Source of the DNA: Gammaproteobacteria bacterium
GTDB lineage: Bacteria; Pseudomonadota; Gammaproteobacteria; Steroidobacterales; PWYM01
NCBI GenBank assembly: GCA_007693855.1
Contig: RECU01000054.1
Coordinates: 1 to 59,686 of the forward strand
Length of the DNA stretch: 59,686 nt
Reading direction: 5' to 3'
Within the stretch, counting starts at the first letter, position 1. Every line of letters begins with the position of its first letter. Below the pieces are notes generated by a model, which did no database searches, was not told the DNA's origin, and was given only the letters and a program-made list of their open reading frames with translations. A program made the position numbers and the translations under genes. Shown here one piece after another: positions 8,230 to 59,252 of the stretch.

Positions 8230-8901
8230 ATGAGCAGGATACTCGTCACCGGCGCGAATCGCGGCATCGGCCTGGCACTTTGCGAGGCCCTCGCCGCCCG
8301 CGGCGATGAGATCATCGGCGTGTGCCGCCGCACGAGCGAGGCGCTGGCGGCCTGCGCCACGCGCGTCATCGAGGGGATCGATGTCGCCGTCCCGGAGGAC
8401 CTCGCGCGGCTGGCCGAGGCCCTCGAAGACGCCTCGCTCGACGTCGTCATTGCCAACGCGGGTCGGCTGTCGTCCCAGCGCCTCGGGGCCATCGATGCGT
8501 CCGCCATCGAAGAGATGCTCACCCAGTACCGGATCAACGCCATCGGTCCGGTGCTCACGGCACAGGCCCTGCGTCCGAAACTTCGCCGGCCCGCTCGGAT
8601 CGCGATCATCACCAGCCGGATGGGCTCGATCGCCGACAACGACTCTGGCGGCAGCTATGGCTACCGGATGTCCAAGGCCGCGGTGAACATGGCTGGCGTG
8701 TCGCTGGCGCGCGATCTTGCCGGCGACGAGATCAGCGTGGGGCTCATCCACCCGGGCTTCGTGCGCACGGAAATGACCGGTGGCCAGGGCCTCATCGAGG
8801 CTTCGGAAGCGGCGGCCGGCATCATCGCCCGCATCGATGAACTGACTGCGAAACGCAGTGGCAGCTTCCGTCACAGCAACGGCGAGTCGCTACCCTGGTA
8901 A
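8230..8901 (+). CDS. Short-chain dehydrogenase/reductase (C-factor-like SDR)
   Basis: The ATG at 8230 with GGGAG upstream gives a 223-residue classical SDR: NAD(P)-binding TGANRGIG at residues 7-14, NAG in VIANAGR, and the catalytic Ser plus YxxxK in SYGYRMSKAA. An ATG at 8179 would add 17 residues without support. C-factor-like SDRs are cytoplasmic oxidoreductases; the substrate is unknown. The 3' end overlaps the converging HAD hydrolase gene by 31 bases. Confidence 0.88.
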   Translation: MSRILVTGANRGIGLALCEALAARGDEIIGVCRRTSEALAACATRVIEGIDVAVPEDLARLAEALEDASLDVVIANAGRLSSQRLGAIDASAIEEMLTQYRINAIGPVLTAQALRPKLRRPARIAIITSRMGSIADNDSGGSYGYRMSKAAVNMAGVSLARDLAGDEISVGLIHPGFVRTEMTGGQGLIEASEAAAGIIARIDELTAKRSGSFRHSNGESLPW

Positions 8902-9563
8902 CCATCGGCCAGCAGCCCGCGCGCGGTGAGCTCGGCGGCCAGCCGGGCGCCCGCGGTGAAGTGCACGGCATCGATGCCTGCCGCGCGCGCGGCGATGACG
9001 TTGTCTTCGCGATCATCGATGAACAGACAACGCGAGGCGGGGCGCTCGATGGTATCGAGCAGGTGTGCATAGATGGCCGACTCCGGCTTGGCAATGCCCA
9101 GTCGCCCGGAAATGATCACGTGTTCGAAAAGCGACATCCAGCCGAAGCGTTCATACAGAAATTCGACCGGCTCAGCGGGATAGTTGGAAAGGGCATGCAG
9201 CCGCAGGCCTGCCGCATGCAGCCCGTGCAGCAGTTGCACGCTCTCCGGCAGGTCGCCGGCGAACATCCTGGGCCAATGCTCACGATAGGCGCGGATGTGA
9301 CCGGCATGTTCGGGAAAGCGCGCGATGCGCTCGGCAATCGCCTCTTCCCAGGGGCGCCCGCGGTCCACCGTGTGGTGCCAGGCCGGGGAGCAGACCTTCG
9401 CCAGAAAGGCCTCCATCGCCTGCGTGTCCCCGCCGAAACGCTCGCGGTAGAGATAGCGGGGATCCCAGTCGACCAGCACATGGCCGAGATCGAACACCAC
9501 GTCGGTCAGCCCTCCCGCGCGGTCTGTGACGCTGTTTTGGCTGAGCTTGTGCATCGCGGTCAT
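8871..9563 (-). CDS. HAD-superfamily hydrolase (HAD-IA type)
   Basis: The 230-residue protein carries the HAD motifs in order: DLGHVLVDWDP (motif I with the first Asp conserved and Gly in place of the usual residue before H), HALSNYP (motif II), the Lys in GIAKPES, and FIDDREDN (motif IV). Such proteins are phosphatases or dehalogenases of small molecules, similar to YihX-type sugar phosphatases; the substrate is not known. ATGs at 9563 and 9554 are both possible. The 3' end overlaps the SDR gene on the other strand. Confidence 0.88.
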   Translation of the reverse strand: MTAMHKLSQNSVTDRAGGLTDVVFDLGHVLVDWDPRYLYRERFGGDTQAMEAFLAKVCSPAWHHTVDRGRPWEEAIAERIARFPEHAGHIRAYREHWPRMFAGDLPESVQLLHGLHAAGLRLHALSNYPAEPVEFLYERFGWMSLFEHVIISGRLGIAKPESAIYAHLLDTIERPASRCLFIDDREDNVIAARAAGIDAVHFTAGARLAAELTARGLLADGYQGSDSPLL

Positions 9564-9649
9564 TGTGCAGAATTTCCGCCGGGCGTCACAGTCGCTGGCC
9601 CGGTGCCGCAGTTAGCATCGGGTGTCCTGCGATCTTCCGTGAGCACGCC

Positions 9650-10960
9650 ATGCGCCACTGCCTGACCGCAACCCTGGCCCCGACCTGCCTGGCCACCCTG
9701 CTGGCCGTCGCGGCAGCGGAGGCCGCCCGTGCGCCGGTGCTGCTCGAGGTCGACAGGTCACTGGCCCTGACACATCAATGGGCCATGCCCGATCCCCCAC
9801 CCCCGGCCGAGCGCCTCCCCGAGCCGCCGGCTGGACACACGCTGGAGCTGCTGGGTGAACGGGTCGCCCCCGGCACCACGCGCCGGCTGGCCTGGCGCTC
9901 GGGCGCCCTGTTCGAAGGGCTGTCCACCAGTACGCCGGTGCTGGTGGTCAATGGCGCGCAGGCCGGCCCCACCGTGTGCCTGACCGCTGCGGTGCATGGC
10001 GATGAGTTGAACGGGATCGAAATGGTCCGGCGGGTGGTGCACGAACTCGATGCCGAGCAGCTGGTGGGGGCGGTGATCGGGGTGCCGGTGGTGAATCTGC
10101 AGGGCTTCCAGAGCGGCTCGCGCTATCTGCCCGACCGGCGCGACCTCAACCGCTACTTCCCCGGCAACCCGACCGGCAGCGCCGCCTCGCGGATCGCCCA
10201 TGACTTCTTCCACCATGTCATCGTGCACTGTGACGCGCTGGTCGATCTGCATACCGGCTCGTTTCACCGCACCAACCTGCCACAGCTGCGTGCCGATCTT
10301 GGTGACCCGGCGGTCCTCACCCTCACCCGGGGTTTCGACACCCTGGTGGTGGTGCACAGCCCGGCCGCCCGCGGCACATTGCGCCGCGCGGCGATGGACG
10401 CCGGCATTCCCGCGGTGACCATGGAAGCCGGTGAACCCCTGCGTCTGCAGCCGGAGGAAGTCGCCCACGGCGTGGAGGGGATCCAGGGTCTGCTGGCCAG
10501 CCTGGACATGACCGGCGGGCGGCGTCTGCCGACCGGGGACTCAGCGGTGTTCTATGCCTCGCGATGGGTCCGCGCGGATCACGGCGGCGTGCTGATCGCC
10601 GGGGTCCGTCCCGGCGACAGCGTGCGGCAGGGGCAGGTGCTGGGCACCATTACGGATCCCGTGAGCAATCGTAGCGAGGAGGTGATCTCGCCCGCAGACG
10701 GGCGGGTCATCGGCATGGCGTTGAACCAGGTGGTGATGCCGGGGTTTGCCACCTTCCACCTGGGACTCTACGGCAAGGCCATCGATCCTGACGCCGCCCC
10801 CGAAGCGCTGTTCGACCTGGCCCGCCTGCGCCGCGCACACGAGTCGGCCGCGGCAGGATTCGCCCGTGCCAACGGCACCGGGCCTGCGGACACCGACAGC
10901 GACGGGCGTGAAGAAGAGGCGGCCGAGAGCGACCGCCTGCCTGGTGACGACGGGGACTGA
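9650..10960 (+). CDS. Exported succinylglutamate desuccinylase/aspartoacylase family protein
   Basis: From the ATG at 9650 the product is 436 residues with a signal peptide (MRHCLTATLAPTCLATLLAVAAAEA). The core is the zinc-dependent AstE/AspA fold related to M14 carboxypeptidases, with the HxxE zinc motif in AVHGDELNG, RDLNRYFPG and DLHTGS. A second, beta-rich domain near GVRPGDSVRQGQVLG resembles a lipoyl-like fold. The C terminus is Asp/Glu-rich. Export is unusual for the cytoplasmic arginine-catabolism enzyme, so this is probably a periplasmic deacylase or amidohydrolase of unknown substrate. It ends 14 bases before the converging htpX. Confidence 0.85.
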   Translation: MRHCLTATLAPTCLATLLAVAAAEAARAPVLLEVDRSLALTHQWAMPDPPPPAERLPEPPAGHTLELLGERVAPGTTRRLAWRSGALFEGLSTSTPVLVVNGAQAGPTVCLTAAVHGDELNGIEMVRRVVHELDAEQLVGAVIGVPVVNLQGFQSGSRYLPDRRDLNRYFPGNPTGSAASRIAHDFFHHVIVHCDALVDLHTGSFHRTNLPQLRADLGDPAVLTLTRGFDTLVVVHSPAARGTLRRAAMDAGIPAVTMEAGEPLRLQPEEVAHGVEGIQGLLASLDMTGGRRLPTGDSAVFYASRWVRADHGGVLIAGVRPGDSVRQGQVLGTITDPVSNRSEEVISPADGRVIGMALNQVVMPGFATFHLGLYGKAIDPDAAPEALFDLARLRRAHESAAAGFARANGTGPADTDSDGREEEAAESDRLPGDDGD

Positions 10961-50686: not shown

Positions 50687-51454
50687 ATGCTCTCAAGTCT
50701 CACTCAGTGGTGGCGCCGCCGTGCCCGCGTCCCGATCCCGGACCCGGTGTGGTCGGCCATCCTCCGCAGCCTGCCGTGGCTCAGAGACCTCGGATCCGAC
50801 GAGCTGATCAAGCTGCGGGAACTCGCCGAGCGGTTTCTCAAGCACAAGGACATCCTCGGTGCGGGCGGGCTGGTGCTCACCGACGAGATGCGTGCGAGTA
50901 TCGCCGTACAGGCCTGCGTGCCGATCCTGCACCTCGGACTGGACTGGTACCGGGGCTGGTACAGCGTGGTCGTCTATCCGGACGACTTCATCGCACCGTT
51001 CGAGTACACGGATGAAGACGGCGTGGTCCACAGCGGCGAGCGCGAGCTCTCGGGGGAGGCCTGGCCGGACGGTCCGGTCGTCCTGTCCTGGCATGGCGCG
51101 CAGGGGAGTGGCTGGGAAACCAGCCTCGGCGGCAACCTTGTGATCCACGAGTTCGCTCACAAACTGGACATGCAGAACGGCGATGCCAACGGACTGCCGC
51201 CGCTGCATGCCGGCATGTCGATCAAGACCTGGCGCGACAGTTTCACCGCGGCCTATGAGGACTTCTGCAACCGCGTCGCCCACCATGACGACTGGCTCGC
51301 CTTCGACGCCTACGCCGCCGAAGACCCAGGCGAATTCTTCGCCGTGACCAGCGAGTGGTTCTTCACCGACCCGCGGGCACTGCGCGCGCAGTACCCGGCG
51401 GTCCACGATCAGCTGGCTGCCTTCTACCGACCGCAAGGCCGCAGCCGACCATGA
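50687..51454 (+). CDS. mtfA: MtfA-like zinc metallopeptidase
   Basis: The ATG at 50687 gives 255 residues (E. coli MtfA 265); the frame is open further upstream but without conserved residues. It has an N-terminal [20 protein letters not shown], the zinc motif [14 protein letters not shown] and the downstream Glu in [12 protein letters not shown]. coli MtfA binds and inactivates the repressor Mlc, and has aminopeptidase activity. The stop overlaps the 5-oxoprolinase start (ATGA). Confidence 0.92.
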
Positions 51455-54400
51455 GCGCGCGCACCGAGACGCGCGACGCGCCTGGCCGCTGGGCATTCTG
51501 GATCGACCGCGGCGGCACGTTCACCGACATCGTCGCCCGCCGGCCGGACGGCGTGATCGAGACCCTCAAACTGCTGTCCGAGGATCCCGCGCGGTATCGG
51601 GACGCGGCCGTCGCCGGCATCCTGCGCCTGCTCGAGCGCCATCCCGGACTGCCACGGACCATCGACAGCGTGCGCATGGGCACGACGGTCGCGACCAACG
51701 CGCTGCTGGAGCGCCGGGGAGAGCCCTGCGCCCTGGTCATCACCCGGGGCTTTGCCGATGCGCTGGAGATCGGCGATCAGCAACGTCCGGAGCTGTTTGC
51801 GCTGGAAATCATCAAGCACCAGCCGCTGCCCGAGCGGGTGATCGAGGCCGACGAGCGCCTGGCCGCCGATGGCGGCGTGGTCCGACCACTCGACGCTGAC
51901 GCCTTGCGACAGGCCCTGGGACGCGTGCGTGCTCAGGGCATCGATGCGCTGGCCATCGTGCTGCTGCACGCGGATCGCCATCCCGGGCACGAGCGCGAAG
52001 CCGCGGCCGTGGCGCAGGCTGTGGGGTTTTCCCAGATCTCGGTGTCGCACGAGGTCAGCCCCCTGATGAAGCTGGTGCCGCGGGGTGAGACCACCTGCGT
52101 CGACGCCTACCTCTCGCCGGTGCTGCGACGCTATGTCGACCAGGTGCTGGCCGGACTCGATGGCCTGCTCCCGGCCGAGCGGCTGCTGTTCATGCAAAGC
52201 CATGGCGGCCTCACACGCGCCCGCAGCTTCCAGGGCAAGGACAGCATTCTCTCCGGGCCGGCCGGCGGCGTGGTGGGCATGGCCGAGACGGCGCGCATCG
52301 CCGGTCTGGCGCGGGTCATCGGCTTCGACATGGGCGGCACGTCGACAGACGTCTCGCTCTACGCCGGCGAATTCGAGCGGACCATGAACGCAGTGATCGC
52401 CGGTACGCGGGTACGCGCACCGATGCTCCGGATCCACACCGTCGCCGCCGGCGGTGGCTCGGTGATCCGCTGGCGCCAGGGACGGCTGCAGGTGGGGCCG
52501 GAGTCTGCCGGCGCGCGGCCGGGGCCGGCCTGCTATCGCAACGGCGGGCCGCTCACCGTGACGGACTGCAACGTCCTGCTGGGGCGCATCCAGGCCGCCC
52601 ATTTTCCGCAGGTTTTCGGCCCGGCAGGTGATCAGCCCCTCGACGCCGAGCGCGTCAGAGACGCCTTCACCGCGCTGGCCCGGACCGTCAGCGACGAGGG
52701 CGGCCAAGCGGTGTCTGCCGAGGCGCTCGCCGAAGGCGCCCTGGCCGTGGCGGTGGAGAACATGGCCAGCGCCATCAAGCAGATCTCGACCCAGCGGGGA
52801 CATGACGTCAGCCGCTTCGCGCTGTGCGTCTTCGGCGGTGCCGGGGGACAGCATGCCTGCCGGGTCGCCGATGCGCTGGGGATGCGCGAGGTGTTCATCC
52901 ATCCGTTGGCCGGGGTGCTCTCGGCGTACGGCATGGGCCTGGCGGATGTGCGCGTCACCCGGGAGCGCACGGCCGAACTGCCACTGGCCCCTGGGCAGGC
53001 TGCCGCCCTCAGGCAGCTGCTCGCCACGGTGGCCGCAGATGCCAAAGCGGCGCTCGACGCCCAGGACATGGCCTTTGCCGACCGTGAACTCAGACAGCGG
53101 CTGCTGCTGCGCCTTGCCGGCAGCGATACCAGCCTGCCCGTGGCGGTCGCCGAGCCCCTGTCGATCGAGGACGCCTGCGAGGCGTTTCATCTCGCCCATG
53201 CTCGCCGCTTCGGATTCCGTGACGAAACCAGGGCGCTGGTGGTCGAGAGCGTGCAGGTCGAGGCGATCGGGCGCATGGCCCGGCGCGGGGAACCGCAGCT
53301 CGCGCCGGCCACCTGCCCCGCCGAAGCACTGGGCCACTATCCCGTCTGGTGCGGCGAGGCTTGGCGGGAGACACCGTTTTTCGAGCGTGCGGCACTGGCA
53401 CCGGGCATGCAGCTGACGGGCCCGGCGGTGATCGTCGAGCGCACGGCCACCACGGTGATCGAGGAGGGCTGGAGTGCCGAGGTGAATGACTGGGGGCACC
53501 TGCGGCTGCGCCGTGAGCAGGCGACCGGACGCCGCCATGCCGATCCGGCGCGCGCGGATCCCGTGGTGCTCGAGATCTTCAATCGCCTGACCATGCATGT
53601 GGCCGAACAGATGGGGGTGGTCCTGGAGAACACCGCACAGTCGGTGAACATCAAGGAGCGGCTGGATTTCTCCTGCGCGCTGTTCGATGCCGCCGGCAGG
53701 CTGGTGGCCAATGCACCGCATATGCCCATCCACCTCGGATCGATGGGGGAGAGCGTCGAGGCCGTGCGCAGGCAGCGCGGCCCGCAGGTCGCCCCGGGCG
53801 ACGCCTACCTGCTGAACGACCCCTACCACGGCGGCACTCATCTCCCCGACATGACCGTGGTCTCGCCGATGTTCCTGCCCGGCGACACGCAGCCGGCGTT
53901 CTGGGTGGCCTCGCGCGCCCACCATGCCGATGTCGGCGGCACGACACCGGGCTCGATGCCCCCGGACAGTCGGCATATCGACGAGGAAGGCGTGCTGTTC
54001 GATGTCTTCGCGCTGGTGCAGGACGGGCAGTTTCGCGAACACGCGCTGCTCGAGCGGCTCGCCGCCGGACGCTGGCCGGCGCGCAACCCGCGGCAGAATG
54101 TCGCCGATCTCAAGGCCCAGCTGGCCGCCAATGCGCGCGGTATCGCCGAACTCGGCCAGATGCTCGACACCTGGGGCGTGGCCACGGTGCGGGCCTACAT
54201 GGAGCACATCCGGGCGAACGCGGCCGCCGCGGTGCGCGAGGTCATCGGGCGGCTGGGCCATGGCCGCTTCGAACTCGACATGGATGGCGGCGAGCGCATC
54301 GTGGTGAGCGTACGCGTCGATGCGCAGGCCGGCACCGCCACGGTGGATTTCACCGGCACCTCGGCGCAGAGCCCACGGAACTTCAATGCCCCCGCAGCCG

Positions 54401-55101
54401 TCGCCAAGGCCGCCGTGCTGTATGTCTTCCGCTGTCTGGTGCGCGAGGCCATTCCGCTGAATGCCGGCTGCCTCGAACCCATCACGATCATCAATCCGCC
54501 GGGCAGCCTGCTCCACCCCGCACCCCCGGCGGCCGTGGTCGCCGGCAATGTCGAGACCTCGCAGTGCGTCACCGATGCGCTGTTCGGCGCCCTCGGTGTG
54601 CTCGCCGGCTCGCAGGGCACGATGAACAATCTCACGTTCGGCAATGGCGACTACCAGTATTACGAGACGCTGTGCGGCGGCGCCGGCGCTGGCGCCGGCT
54701 TTCCGGGGGCCAGCGCCGTGCATACCCACATGACCAATTCCCGACTGACGGACCCCGAGGTGCTGGAATTCCGCTACCCGGTGCGCCTCGAGGAGTTTGC
54801 CGTGCGGCGCGGCTCAGGCGGTGCCGGCAGACAGCCGGGCGGGGATGGCATCCTCCGGCGCCTGCGCTTCCTGGTGCCGATGTCGGCAGCCATCCTGTCG
54901 AACAACCGCCGCACCGGCGGTTTCGGGCTGGCGGGCGGCGAGTCAGGCCAGGCTGGCGTCAATCGCGTGATTCGGGCCAGCGGCGAGACACGCCTGCTGC
55001 CCGCCTGTGCGGCCATCGAGATGGCGCCGGGCGACGCCCTGGAAATCGCCACGCCGGGCGGCGGCGGCTATGGTCCGCCGCCCGCTACTCGACGATCCTG
55101 A
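51451..55101 (+). CDS. 5-oxoprolinase-like fused hydantoinase A/B
   Basis: The 1216-residue protein joins a HyuA part (residues 1 to about 690; [42 protein letters not shown]) to a HyuB part (about 700-1210; [37 protein letters not shown]). This is the layout of ATP-dependent 5-oxoprolinases, which open 5-oxoproline to glutamate; hydantoinase activity is possible. The ATG overlaps the mtfA stop by 4 bases. The end overlaps the converging DUF427 gene by 17 bases. Confidence 0.92.
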
Positions 55102-55366
55102 TGCCTTTCCAGAAGGCCACACGGCCGCGGATTTCGCCGGCGGCAGACAGCGGTTCCGGGTAATACCAAGCGGCGTCCTCGTTGACCGCACCGTTCACGG
55201 CGACGTGATAGTAATGCGCAGTGCCCTTCCACGGGCAGAATGAGGTGGTCGGCGAGTCCTTCAGGAAGTGGCGGCGCAGCGAGTAGCGCGGAAAGTAGTG
55301 ATTGCCTTCGATCACCAGGGTGTCATCACTCTCGGCGATGATCGCATCGTGCCAGATGGCCTTCAT
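55085..55366 (-). CDS. DUF427 domain protein
   Basis: The 93-residue protein is a DUF427 domain: [41 protein letters not shown] and [19 protein letters not shown]. It is a small beta-rich soluble protein of unknown function. GGGGGAG precedes the ATG. It is transcribed from the 111-base gap behind the tail sheath-like gene. Confidence 0.92.
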
Positions 55367-55477: not shown

Positions 55478-57055
55478 TCAGACGGCGAGCGAGAGGCTGC
55501 GGGTCAGGGGCATGGCGCTGATGCGCGTCCCGGCGGGCCGTTGACCGACACTGAAGATCAGAAATTCTCCGGGGCGGCTAAGCGCCAGGCCGATCAGGAT
55601 ATTGAACTGCGGCTCGCCGCTGCGGCCTTTCGACTGGGTTTGGGCATCGCACTTGACGAACCAGGACTGTTCGGGGGCCAGCCCGGCAAACGCCCCCTGC
55701 TCATGCAGCTGCTGCAGGAAAGCCGACACCTGATGCCGGATCCGCGCCCACAGCACCGGGTCGTTCTGCTCGAACACCAGCCAGCGGGTGGACCGCGCCA
55801 CGGCCTCCAGCACGAACAGCACCAGCCGTGTTCGGGTCAGCGACTGCCACTCGGGGACGCTGGCGGTCGCGCCGGCCAGGGTGACGTCGCCGCGGAACAC
55901 CACACCGCCCCCGGCGGTCCGCGCAAGCACGTTCAGCCCACGCTGGTGCAGACGCTGCGCCTCGGTCGGTGCCACATCCTCCGCCGGCAACCAGCCGCCT
56001 CGCAGCAGACCGGTCTGCGAGTCGAGCCCGCGCCAGATGCCGGCGCTGGCGTCCTTGCGCGCCAGCATCCCGGCGATGGCACCACTGGCGGGCATCGGCC
56101 GCCCGTGACCCTCGCCGCGACGACGCACCCAGGGGTAGTAGCTCACCACATGGCTGCTGGCGAACCCGAGCCGCTCGGCGCCGGCCCGCGCGCTGGCGGC
56201 ATCACCCCAGGCCTGCGGTGGATCGATCAGCAGGACCATCGAGCGCTGACGACAGAAGCGCTCGGCGGCCACCAATGCGGTCAGACCCAGATCGCGCCCG
56301 GGAGAGGGCGGCGGCAGACACAGCATCGACAGCTCATCGCAGCCGGCCAGGGCGAACAGTCCTGTGTGTTCGGTGGCCGAGCCTACCAGGTCGTAGTCGC
56401 AGAGATCCTCGCCATCGTGACCGTCCGGACGGATATCGATATAGCTGACCACGCCGCCCGGAGCACTGGACACGGTGCGTTCAGGCCGCTGCGTGGGACA
56501 GGACCCGGCCAGGCGAAGCATCGCCGACCCCGCCAGCACGTCAGCGACATGGTCCTCGTCACCAGGCTTCACGCTGAGGCGGCGAAAGATCTCCTGGTCG
56601 ATGACCCGGCGGGGCTGCTCATCGCTCAGGCGCTGGATGACCAGATTGAAGCGCAGCGGGTCATCTTCCACGCGATCGTGATCCACCGAGATGCGCAGGT
56701 GCTCATGGCGCCCGGGATCACGTGCCCGCAGCACCAGGCGGCTGTCGCCGGCAGGCAGATGCAGGGTGGCACAACTCGCGCCGCTGGCGACCCGCACCAC
56801 CACCGCCCGCTGTCCGCCGTGCTCGAAGAACTGACTGACGGCGTGACCTAGCCAGGACCAGGCCGTGGTCGGTCCGAAGATGCGCTGGAAGTCTGCGGGA
56901 TGCGAGATCGCGATGGGGGTATGCAGCGGACCCCGCCGCGCGCGGCCGACGAACGCCACCACCGAGGGCCGGCTGACCGGGATGGGCTGGCCCGGCGCCG
57001 GGTGCTCCCCGACGGTCATCCCCGTGTTCCAGGTCTCGAGCGATCCAGCGTCCAT
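55478..57055 (-). CDS. Orphan phage tail sheath-like protein
   Basis: The 525-residue protein looks like a contractile tail sheath. Near the N terminus RPSVVAFVGRARRGP and ADFQRIFGP match the sheath start; HAVSQFFEHGGQRAVVVRVA follows. The C-terminal part (about 365-515) has the strongest sheath signature: ARTAGGGVVFRGDVTLA, RWLVFEQNDPVLWARIRHQV, QGAFAGLAPEQSWFVKCD and a beta-rich end. No tube, baseplate, spike, ATPase or capsid gene is near. Codon use looks like the neighbours, so it is probably resident. Its role is unknown; an extended -10 promoter lies upstream. Confidence 0.85.
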   Translation of the reverse strand: MDAGSLETWNTGMTVGEHPAPGQPIPVSRPSVVAFVGRARRGPLHTPIAISHPADFQRIFGPTTAWSWLGHAVSQFFEHGGQRAVVVRVASGASCATLHLPAGDSRLVLRARDPGRHEHLRISVDHDRVEDDPLRFNLVIQRLSDEQPRRVIDQEIFRRLSVKPGDEDHVADVLAGSAMLRLAGSCPTQRPERTVSSAPGGVVSYIDIRPDGHDGEDLCDYDLVGSATEHTGLFALAGCDELSMLCLPPPSPGRDLGLTALVAAERFCRQRSMVLLIDPPQAWGDAASARAGAERLGFASSHVVSYYPWVRRRGEGHGRPMPASGAIAGMLARKDASAGIWRGLDSQTGLLRGGWLPAEDVAPTEAQRLHQRGLNVLARTAGGGVVFRGDVTLAGATASVPEWQSLTRTRLVLFVLEAVARSTRWLVFEQNDPVLWARIRHQVSAFLQQLHEQGAFAGLAPEQSWFVKCDAQTQSKGRSGEPQFNILIGLALSRPGEFLIFSVGQRPAGTRISAMPLTRSLSLAV

Positions 57056-57153: not shown

Positions 57154-57915
57154 TCAGCCCAGCAGCAGGCGCAGCCAGACCACCAGCAGCACCAGCGAGG
57201 CCACCGCACTCAACTGCAGGCGCAACCGGACGTACCAGCGGGCGAGAATGCGCTTGCCCGGCACCATCCATTCATACAGCCACCAACCCACGAAACCGGC
57301 CAGCAGCACGAGCAGCGCCGGCGCGGACTCCGGGCCGGCGAGCAGCGCGACCCAGCCGACCAGTGCCGGCAGCACCGACAGGCCGAGCATGAGTCTGGCC
57401 TTGAGCGGGCGCACGGGCCCCGCCAGCGCCACCCCCCAGTGAACCGCGCCGACGAAAGCCAGGATGACTGCGGCATAGCTCGCGACGAAAAACACCGGAT
57501 CGACGCCGAAGACGGGGCGATTGCCGAACAGCAGCGCCAGCGCGCCACCCACCAGGAACGGGATCAGACCGCCATAGCCGAGCGCCTGGGCGAGGCCGAT
57601 GAGGCGCTCGCCACTGCCCGTGCCCACGGGCGCGGTCAGGCCAAGCCGCGCATAGAGCTCCAGCGGACCGCCAACATGCTTGCCGTCGAGGAAGCACTGG
57701 GGCAGCAGGCGCGCCCCGGTCTGCTCGGTGAGCTCGCGGAATTCATCGCGGTTGGCCTGCGGCCCCATCGACAGCCGCAGAGTGGTGTGACTGACACCCG
57801 CCTGTTCGAGACGCTGCTCCGGTTCGCGAAAATCGGTCAGGCCTGAGCCGAGCAGCACAACCCGCGCGTCTCGGCCGGCGGCGGCGATGCGGGTGGCGAG
57901 ACTGTCGTCTGCCAT
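57154..57915 (-). CDS. Glutaredoxin-like domain fused to DUF3429 membrane domain
   Basis: The 253-residue protein has an N-terminal glutaredoxin-like fold (about 15-95) with the late motif LLPQCFLDGKHVGGPLELYA, but the usual CxxC/CxxS at the start is replaced by GSGLTDF. It is followed by DUF3429 (about 105-253) with about five membrane helices, such as LIPFLVGGALALLF and SYAAVILAFVGAVHWGV. DUF3429 has no known role. The domain has lost its redox site, so it may bind or sense and not reduce. A short charged small gene lies just upstream. Confidence 0.82.
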   Translation of the reverse strand: MADDSLATRIAAAGRDARVVLLGSGLTDFREPEQRLEQAGVSHTTLRLSMGPQANRDEFRELTEQTGARLLPQCFLDGKHVGGPLELYARLGLTAPVGTGSGERLIGLAQALGYGGLIPFLVGGALALLFGNRPVFGVDPVFFVASYAAVILAFVGAVHWGVALAGPVRPLKARLMLGLSVLPALVGWVALLAGPESAPALLVLLAGFVGWWLYEWMVPGKRILARWYVRLRLQLSAVASLVLLVVWLRLLLG

Positions 57916-57919
57916 GTGT

Positions 57920-58066
57920 TCAAGCCGCCGGCGGCTTGCGTGTATCCGGGCGCTCCGGAGTACTTTCGCGTTGGCGAGCCGCCTGCTCTTCGCGGGCCGC
58001 CTCGGCTTCCTCGCGCTTGCGCTCGATTTCCTCGAGCATCACCTTCATCCACTCACTCATGTCCAT
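57920..58066 (-). CDS. Small charged helical protein, 48 aa (hypothetical)
   Basis: From the ATG at 58066 (or 58060) the product is 48 residues: MDMSEWMKVMLEEIERKREE, then EAEAAREEQAARQ and a Pro-rich end. It is a highly charged helix that could form a coiled coil. It lies 4 bases before the glutaredoxin-DUF3429 start, the spacing of a coupled gene. There is no strong ribosome site. It seems real because the frame has normal amino-acid use while the frame upstream of the ATG does not. Confidence 0.55.
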   Translation of the reverse strand: MDMSEWMKVMLEEIERKREEAEAAREEQAARQRESTPERPDTRKPPAA

Positions 58067-58109: not shown

Positions 58110-59252
58110 TCAATGGTTTGTCGGCTCGCGCAGCGCGGCGAGCTCGCCGTCACCCGGTGCCACCACGTTCTCCACGCGACGGGCAGCAGCCAGCACCTGG
58201 TCATGGTCGGCACTGTTGCGCAGGGTCGGCAACGCGATCCCCCGACCCTCGGCAAGCAGTGAGGCCGCGCGCCTGAAGTCCACCGTACCTAGGGGCTGAC
58301 CGGCCTCGGCCATCGCCTGCTCGATCACATCGACCAGCAGCTTTTCGGGATCGCGCGCATCCTCTTCCAGCGGCGCGTGCGCATCGACATAGAGCTGGCG
58401 GCCGTGCCAGGCGGCCAGCACCGGCTCGTTGATCAACCGCACCGGCGTGCCCAGTGCGATGCGCGGATACAGCGCCTCGATGTCTTCGGGGAACATGCGT
58501 ACGCAGCCCGCGCTCACCCGCATGCCCACCCCCGGCGGCTGATTGGTGCCGTGGATCAGATAGCTCGGCAGGCCGAGACGGAAGACATGCCGGCCGAGCG
58601 GGTTGTCCGGGCCCGGCGGCACGATGGCGGGCAGCGGATCCCCCTGCTCGGCGTGCTCCCGACGCACCGACAGCGGCGGGTACCAGGTGGGGTCGGTGGC
58701 CTTGTCGATCACCGTGCTCTGCCCGGTCGGCGTTGCCCGGCCGAGCCGTCCGATACCGATCGGGTGGGTGTAGACGACCTGCGTGCCGTCCTCGCCCGGC
58801 GGCTCGAAGTAGAACAGGCGCATCTGCGCGTTGTTGATGACAATCCCCTCGCGCGGCACGGGCGGCAGGATGAACCGGGTCGGCAGCACCACTGCCGTGC
58901 CCTCGCCCGGCAGCCAGGGATCGACGTCCGGGTTGGCGGCCACCAGCTCCTCGAAGCCGAGGTTGTAGGCCCGCGCGATGTCGACGAAGGTGTCCTCGTC
59001 GCGGGTCTGCAGCACCTGCAGTTCACCGACCACCCGTTGGGCTGGGTCGGCGACGACAAAGCGGGAGGTGTCCAGCGGGGGCTGCTCCAGCTGGACCACG
59101 ACCGGCGCGGCGCTCTCACCGGGTGCAGCCTCACCTGGCGCGGAGAGCCGATCCAGCGTCGCACAGCCGCCGAGCAGCAGGCTGCCGAGCAGACACACTG
59201 ACAGGAATCGTGAGGACACGTGCGCTGACGAATGATTTTCCATGGAAATCAT
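58110..59252 (-). CDS. L,D-transpeptidase lipoprotein with LysM domain
   Basis: The 380-residue protein has a lipoprotein signal with lipobox LLGGC (Cys30), a LysM-like segment (about 75-125; ARAYNLGFEELVAANPDVDP) and a YkuD catalytic domain with IHGTNQP and the nucleophile in VSAGCVRMFPED. It matches the ErfK/YcfS group that cross-links peptidoglycan or attaches Braun lipoprotein. The ATG at 59252 overlaps the pdeM stop; an ATG at 59243 is possible. Confidence 0.92.
   Translation of the reverse strand: MISMENHSSAHVSSRFLSVCLLGSLLLGGCATLDRLSAPGEAAPGESAAPVVVQLEQPPLDTSRFVVADPAQRVVGELQVLQTRDEDTFVDIARAYNLGFEELVAANPDVDPWLPGEGTAVVLPTRFILPPVPREGIVINNAQMRLFYFEPPGEDGTQVVYTHPIGIGRLGRATPTGQSTVIDKATDPTWYPPLSVRREHAEQGDPLPAIVPPGPDNPLGRHVFRLGLPSYLIHGTNQPPGVGMRVSAGCVRMFPEDIEALYPRIALGTPVRLINEPVLAAWHGRQLYVDAHAPLEEDARDPEKLLVDVIEQAMAEAGQPLGTVDFRRAASLLAEGRGIALPTLRNSADHDQVLAAARRVENVVAPGDGELAALREPTNH

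Follow-up and report, generated by a model that had tools for sequence, protein, structure and literature searches.

A stand-alone tail sheath gene conserved across much of the order Steroidobacterales

Introduction

Tail sheath proteins are familiar from contractile machines, in which they are built up around a tube and together with a baseplate, and in working sheaths the N- and C-terminal arms and the C-terminal half of the protein carry the lattice contacts. Here we describe a sheath gene from a gammaproteobacterium of the order Steroidobacterales, which, together with its orthologues, we call the orphan sheath. Its closest described counterparts are the sheaths of extracellular contractile injection systems (eCIS; that of Streptomyces coelicolor, structures 8bky and 9gts, and those of AFP and PVC), with which it shares the fold and sequence similarity over nearly the full length; unlike them, it stands without tube, baseplate, cap or ATPase, and has a looser C-terminal half, a longer tail and a degraded N-terminal arm. 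Gammaproteobacterial eCIS loci (L104–L108 below) carry a sheath of similar length, but there it is followed by genes for the tube, the baseplate, Pvc16 and an AAA ATPase. A sheath protein without tube or baseplate is known as the polysheath formed by gp053 of phage FV3, as described in the accessible part of PMC6357053. That polysheath is a laboratory product of a phage gene, whereas the orphan is a conserved host gene.

In a search of open papers, with subscription journals and preprints mostly outside its scope, we found, among the papers listed, none that describes a sheath gene standing alone and conserved within a bacterial lineage. A stand-alone sheath is likewise not mentioned in the accessible parts of a review of eCIS (PMC10598620) and of another on the recruitment of mobile-element genes (PMC8987985).

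Results

Identity and predicted fold of the sheath protein

The window, that is, the whole stretch of 59,686 nucleotides analysed here, is one whole contig (RECU01000054.1 of assembly GCA_007693855.1), and the sheath gene lies 2.6 kb from the contig end. The gene and its parts are as follows.

55478..57055, minus strand: orphan sheath gene, 525 aa, ATG start, the sole copy found in its own genome
56957..57055, minus strand: N-terminal arm, residues 1-33; the eCIS arm of the YPGVYIEE type is degraded here and variable among orphans
56441..56758, minus strand: middle domain, residues 100-205, with orphan-specific L107, D127, Q141, R142, Q154 and T194
55532..55870, minus strand: core of the C-terminal sheath domain, residues 396-508; in orphans no region is less conserved, whereas in working sheaths it is among the most conserved
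55727..55786, minus strand: sheath signature RWLVFEQNDPVLWARIRHQV, residues 424-443
55481..55531, minus strand: C-terminal tail, residues 509-525; extended relative to the compared eCIS and phage sheaths

The initial annotation had called the product sheath-like from its C-terminal signature and N-terminal start, and this identity was borne out. The 525-aa protein matched the Pfam families PF04984 (E 1.9e-9; 38 bits against a cut-off of 31.4) and PF17482 (E 1.8e-6; 28.3 bits against 26.9) as well as the tail sheath family PHROG_23 (E 6.9e-38), and its best PDB sequence match was the injection-system sheath of Streptomyces coelicolor (8bky, E 3.2e-44, residues 12-509). An NCBIfam scan of the protein gave no match, and a search of its own genome returned the protein itself as the sole match. 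Within the orphan profile A1, which comprises 33 of the 37 orthologues found among relatives (some rows begin before the likely start codon), PF17482 was matched by 20 of the 33 members and PF04984 by 12 (E <= 0.01).

An AlphaFold model, built from the sheath protein together with three close orthologues and 23 homologues from viral contigs, was obtained as a monomer of moderate confidence (pLDDT 76, pTM 0.76). Comparison of this model with the PDB returned sheaths, contractile phage tails and injection systems among the 50 matches listed per search, the best being 9gts_2A, the sheath of the Streptomyces coelicolor CIS (Z 36.2 over 326 residues, rmsd 2.3 Å). The initial annotation had proposed this comparison and had named absence of the sheath fold as evidence against its reading; the fold is present. 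Taken together, the domain models and the predicted fold indicate genuine membership of the tail sheath protein superfamily. Codon use resembles that of the neighbours, as had been claimed (GC3 0.83 versus 0.81-0.84). The extended -10 promoter that had been suggested for the gene is not supported, a sigma-70 scan having found none. By eye, a TGGTATGAT string is visible that ends 25 bases before the ATG of the sheath gene.

Gene surroundings at the source locus and in relatives

The sheath is preceded on its own strand by a glutaredoxin-like/DUF3429 gene, a 48-aa ORF and a LysM-YkuD gene, and is followed by a DUF427 gene and a convergent hydantoinase-like gene.

51355..55101, plus strand: gene that we take, from its sequence, to be hydantoinase/5-oxoprolinase-like; convergent with the sheath
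55085..55366, minus strand: DUF427 (NTP_transf_9), E 2.4e-31; near the sheath in 4/57 loci, no general partner
57154..57915, minus strand: glutaredoxin-like plus DUF3429 (DUF3429 E 1.1e-26); near the sheath in 7/57 loci, no general partner
57920..58066, minus strand: 48-aa ORF for a small charged helical protein; found in 22/57 loci
58110..59252, minus strand: LysM-YkuD L,D-transpeptidase-like lipoprotein (YkuD E 1.7e-20; LysM weak, E 0.13)

The DUF427, glutaredoxin-DUF3429 and LysM-YkuD neighbours are thus present as first named, with a weak LysM match and a glutaredoxin match just below its cut-off (19.2 versus 22.9 bits). No other tail genes were seen among the ORFs around the sheath, and two loci of the same genus (L066, L067), longer on the side of the contig end, showed no eCIS component there either.

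We compared 57 orphan loci, namely the 37 orthologues from a search of 59 relatives and 20 loci picked from the listed order-wide matches, the latter chosen for genus variety and complete contigs out of 229 matching genomes. The stretches read had a mean length of 16.5 kb including the gene, some at contig ends being far shorter (6.7 kb in L050), and their genes were called with a home-made gene finder, by which small genes may be missed. Four components, the tube, baseplate, Pvc16 and ATPase of related eCIS loci, were sought by sequence, and none of them was found at any of the 57 orphan loci. By sequence cluster, all four were present in five of five eCIS control loci (L104-L108), which are the five best of 22 matching class-sample genomes outside the order and score 257-408 bits against the orphan profile. 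In Pfam terms, L104 contains a PF06841 tube (7.7e-47), T4_baseplate (8.8e-11), Pvc16_N (9.2e-51), an AAA domain (5.2e-24) with a winged-helix domain, and eCIS_core (1.4e-31). The features that define eCIS membership, a gp19-type tube, a baseplate, a cap and an AAA ATPase at the locus, were found in 0/57 orphans. The orphan status described in the initial annotation therefore extends to all 57 loci, with few or no such components in the genomes; it had also asked for the neighbours of homologues to be tabulated, and in these loci the homologues do not lie beside tube, baseplate or eCIS-ATPase genes, the arrangement it had named as counting against it.

Other genes recur around the sheath. The LysM-YkuD gene lies upstream on the same strand in 33 of the 57 loci, the hydantoinase-like gene is present in 27 (in 26 of them downstream on the opposite strand), and a presumably PLP-enzyme-like gene lies upstream on the opposite strand in 24. 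A conserved operon partner was sought in the 57 loci and none was found, the immediate upstream and downstream genes being variable. Two neighbours had been put forward as candidate partners: the redox fusion, which lies near the sheath in seven of the 57 loci, is not supported, and the helical ORF is a weak candidate. The latter, recognisable by the pattern xEWLxVMLEEIxRKxxEA on the sheath strand in its 22 loci, directly precedes the sheath in four of them (five counting L118, where the ORF call overlapped it) and has the LysM-YkuD gene just before it in 13; the longer frame that holds it matched no Pfam family. Fusion partners were considered as well, but the long N-terminal open frames at some loci (886 aa in L120, among others) look by eye like untranslated high-GC frame.

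Distribution, phylogeny and selection

Among the 59 relatives, 40 match the sheath protein at E <= 1e-5, and in 37 of these the match is an orthologue that aligns over most of its length or all of it; the weaker matches in G008, G011 and G019 are to other sheaths. An orthologue is present in all 34 genomes of nine families (f1, f2, f3, f6, f7, f9, f10, f11 and f15, own genome included, with f2 and f7 contributing one genome each), in 2/3 genomes of f4 and in 1/5 of f5. It is missing in 17/17 genomes of f8, f12, f13, f14 and f16, and the gene is therefore not essential across the order. Order-wide, 229 of 296 sampled genomes, from 55 of 68 genera, contain a match to the A1 profile at E <= 1e-50; six of these genomes are matched twice, and a few of the matches are partial. 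In wider samples, matches were found in 25/274 genomes of a class sample at E <= 1e-30, three of them from the order itself, and in 4/398 genomes of a phylum sample at E <= 1e-60, one being the own genome.

Viral contigs gave no match when searched with the single query; searched with the alignment, they yielded 41 loci, the best at about 35% identity, and the nearest of these sheaths group with eCIS sheaths in the tree. Five loci filed as viral contigs (L130, L132-L135) have sheaths that fall among bacterial eCIS sheaths, and may be bacterial eCIS fragments. Among phage records, 23 matched, none over 80% of the query, so that no close relatives in phages were found. Homologues were also found in 120 plasmid records, of which 29 cover at least 80% of the query, with identity up to 33%.

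In a tree of 74 sheaths, a branch with support 100/99 sets the 57 orphans apart, and every order family represented by at least two rows (nine families) comes out as a single clade. A long branch is flagged for f10_L040. L107 and L073 were excluded from the tree, and L071 and L072, multi-part sheath matches, from both the tree and the conservation comparison below. For pairs within the genus, dN/dS comes to 0.10 and 0.13 with the two nearest relatives and to 0.29-0.36 in the four comparisons with the most distant member (L068), the neighbouring genes ranging from 0.04 to 0.63. Judged by these ratios, purifying selection acts on the sheath gene. Its broad occurrence in the order, a tree that follows families, this selection and the absence of the four eCIS components at the 57 loci strongly support the earlier suggestion of a domesticated sheath.

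These data also bear on whether the gene is simply a functionless remnant of a decaying prophage or eCIS. The rest of the machine is gone at the loci, and broken eCIS pieces exist in one relative (G025); set against this, the reading frames are open and form one clade per family in the 57 loci, dN/dS to the nearest relatives is about 0.1, and the gene is kept in every genome of nine families, which makes decay scarcely credible. A prophage or eCIS remnant at the source locus was likewise rejected, there being no other tail gene around the sheath and the orthologues being intact across the order.

Regional conservation of the orphan sheath

To compare conservation by region, we used pairs at 25-50% overall identity, 1,437 among orphans and 111 among eCIS and phage sheaths. 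Mean identity in the orphans is 0.47 for residues 28-93, 0.43 for residues 100-205 and 0.30 for residues 396-508, and in the eCIS and phage sheaths 0.39, 0.24 and 0.42, respectively. Relative to the whole protein, the middle domain thus stands at 1.15 in orphans versus 0.68 in eCIS and phage sheaths, and the C-terminal region at 0.79 versus 1.21. The N-terminal region is also well conserved in orphans, and the middle domain is therefore not the sole tight part.

By column, 86 positions that are at least 90% conserved in an 11-row eCIS set drop below 50% in the orphans, 76 of them at 304-508 and none at 33-242; the 11 rows are closely related (5 pairs at 25-50% identity), so that their conservation partly reflects relatedness, and the 19-row eCIS and phage set, from which the 111 pairs come, makes a better control. 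Orphan-specific columns at >= 90% number eleven, of which nine fall between 107 and 226, and Y221, D222 and S226 are orphan-specific residues just past the middle domain. Orphans and eCIS sheaths have a further 36 conserved columns in common, ten of which come after residue 304, so a lattice is still conceivable. Automatic start choice shortened the comparison rows L104, L105, L107, L108, L070 and L073.

Past position 498, 23-83 residues follow in 55 of the 57 orphans (all but the two of f4) and 10-19 in the 19 comparison sheaths, the tail of 10 in L134 being a minimum as that sequence runs off its contig. In the model, a strand is predicted at residues 508-515 of the orphan tail. As read from these sequence comparisons, the looser C-terminal half and the rewritten tail speak against a canonical contractile lattice, with a filament still conceivable.

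Such a filament, which the initial annotation had suggested, would arise if the orphan sheath self-polymerised, like phage polysheaths, into a cytoplasmic tube or scaffold. The model's PDB matches indicate that the sheath fold is kept, and recombinant gp053 forms stable tubes without other phage proteins, as described in the accessible part of PMC6357053. However, the accessible part of PMC9230969 describes some simple prophage sheath proteins that form no polymers, and in the orphan the N-terminal arm and C-terminal half have loosened and the C-terminal tail is rewritten. We consider this outcome rather unlikely, though conceivable.

A sheath fold without a machine of its own could also act as an interference protein, a sheath-like subunit that enters contractile phage tails or rival tailocins and poisons their assembly. 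Here the lattice-side half has drifted from phage and eCIS sheaths, and the gene follows bacterial families and keeps shared chromosomal surroundings, which typical mobile defence genes do not do in this way; we regard such a role as highly improbable.

Contractile components elsewhere in the genomes

We searched the genomes for six component families (gp19 tube, gp25, spike, Pvc16, Hcp and P2-type tube), using models that would miss partners too divergent for them. The own genome gave no match to any of the six, Hcp, a feature of T6SS membership, included, and none to the eCIS ATPase at E <= 1e-12. Among the 59 relatives, the PF06841 tube was found in three (G009, G011 and, as a 28-bit match, G025) and gp25 in six, five of them over the cut-off. 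In the 40 orphan-bearing genomes, that is, the 37 with orthologues and three more, the spike (PF04717) was found in three, Pvc16 in one, Hcp in five, the P2-type tube in none, and an AAA match to the eCIS ATPase, elsewhere in the genome, in nine. The single-contig genomes G031 and G048 were negative for all six families and for the eCIS ATPase; two others, G350 and G491, were negative for the spike, Pvc16, Hcp and the P2-type tube, G491 having one AAA match. G009, positive in the gp19 tube, gp25, spike, Pvc16 and Hcp searches, carries an eCIS and, on another contig, the orphan. In G025, broken eCIS pieces lie at C56:27769-29076 (an ATPase match with internal stops and a short tube match), and the orphan is intact elsewhere.

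A split injection system elsewhere in the genome was thus looked for and rejected for the own genome. A hidden one, whose tube and baseplate have diverged beyond the reach of the models, could draw on the kept sheath fold, the 36 columns common with eCIS sheaths and the AAA matches in nine orphan-bearing genomes. Yet the own genome, G031 and G048 are negative for six families of which the first five were detected in G009, and the C-terminal constraint has weakened, leaving very little probability for such a system.

Discussion

Our preferred explanation, which we hold to be probably correct, is that the orphan is an eCIS-type sheath that lost its machine and has been passed on vertically as a host protein, one that stands alone and has ceased to contract. 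We consider a stand-alone, non-contractile host function, taken by itself, very probable, and regard the orphan as a sheath-superfamily protein outside any contractile system. The loss would have taken place before or early in the radiation of the order, followed by vertical inheritance as a host gene, as a rule in one copy. The product would be a cytoplasmic stand-alone protein (by eye, a signal sequence is absent), and both contraction and the clasping of a tube would have been given up.

With respect to mechanism, this domesticated sheath would most likely work as a binding or scaffold protein through residues ~100-230, the middle domain and the stretch after it, a proposed site that holds the orphan-specific polar residues D127, Q141, R142, Q154, T194, Y221, D222 and S226. 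The conservation pattern suggests that the C-terminal half would mainly be a folded platform, with the lattice arm replaced by the new tail. No gene is found with the sheath at every locus, so its partner would be encoded away from the sheath locus. Resting as it does on conservation patterns, this middle-domain scaffold mechanism is put forward tentatively.

Encapsulins, which have known cargo, are built on a capsid fold, whereas the fold here is that of a tail sheath. According to the accessible part of PMC8987985, encapsulins are a phage capsid fold used by bacteria for compartments, and the orphan resembles them as a single phage structural fold retained by cells for a new use. It is conceivable, if less than an even chance, that the orphan is their tail counterpart, the order keeping the sheath as a stand-alone building or binding element whose former machine-facing side has loosened and whose middle domain bears a new conserved site; if so, it would represent a new class of host protein on the sheath fold.

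A lone sheath under selection across much of an order suggests that the fold is usable for another cellular job, and the orphans provide a defined family in which to find that use, present in 55 of 68 sampled genera, usually as a single gene, and open to deletion. For annotators, a 'phage tail sheath' label in these genomes is not necessarily a sign of a prophage or injection system.

Several further sheaths were encountered in the course of this analysis. Of three relatives from the phylum sample outside the order, L175 and L176 are eCIS loci. G023 has a second sheath (L070, 9188-10708, plus strand), eCIS-type and lying between genes that by eye are acyltransferase-like and reductase-like; none of the eCIS components looked for was found there, and it is a second kind of isolated sheath. 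In G019, a genome of family f16 without the orphan, an isolated sheath of a different type (L073, 8987-10519, minus strand; PF17482, 50 bits) likewise showed, over 19 kb, none of the eCIS components that were sought. At L174, the third phylum-sample relative (8233-10463, minus strand, genome G692), the sheath comes directly after an eCIS-type AAA ATPase (46% identity), and a tube match sought in 18 kb was not found; this locus, from another family of the class, may be read as a remnant or a module of two genes. Because it has an eCIS-type ATPase without a tube, loss of context by a sheath also happened outside the order.
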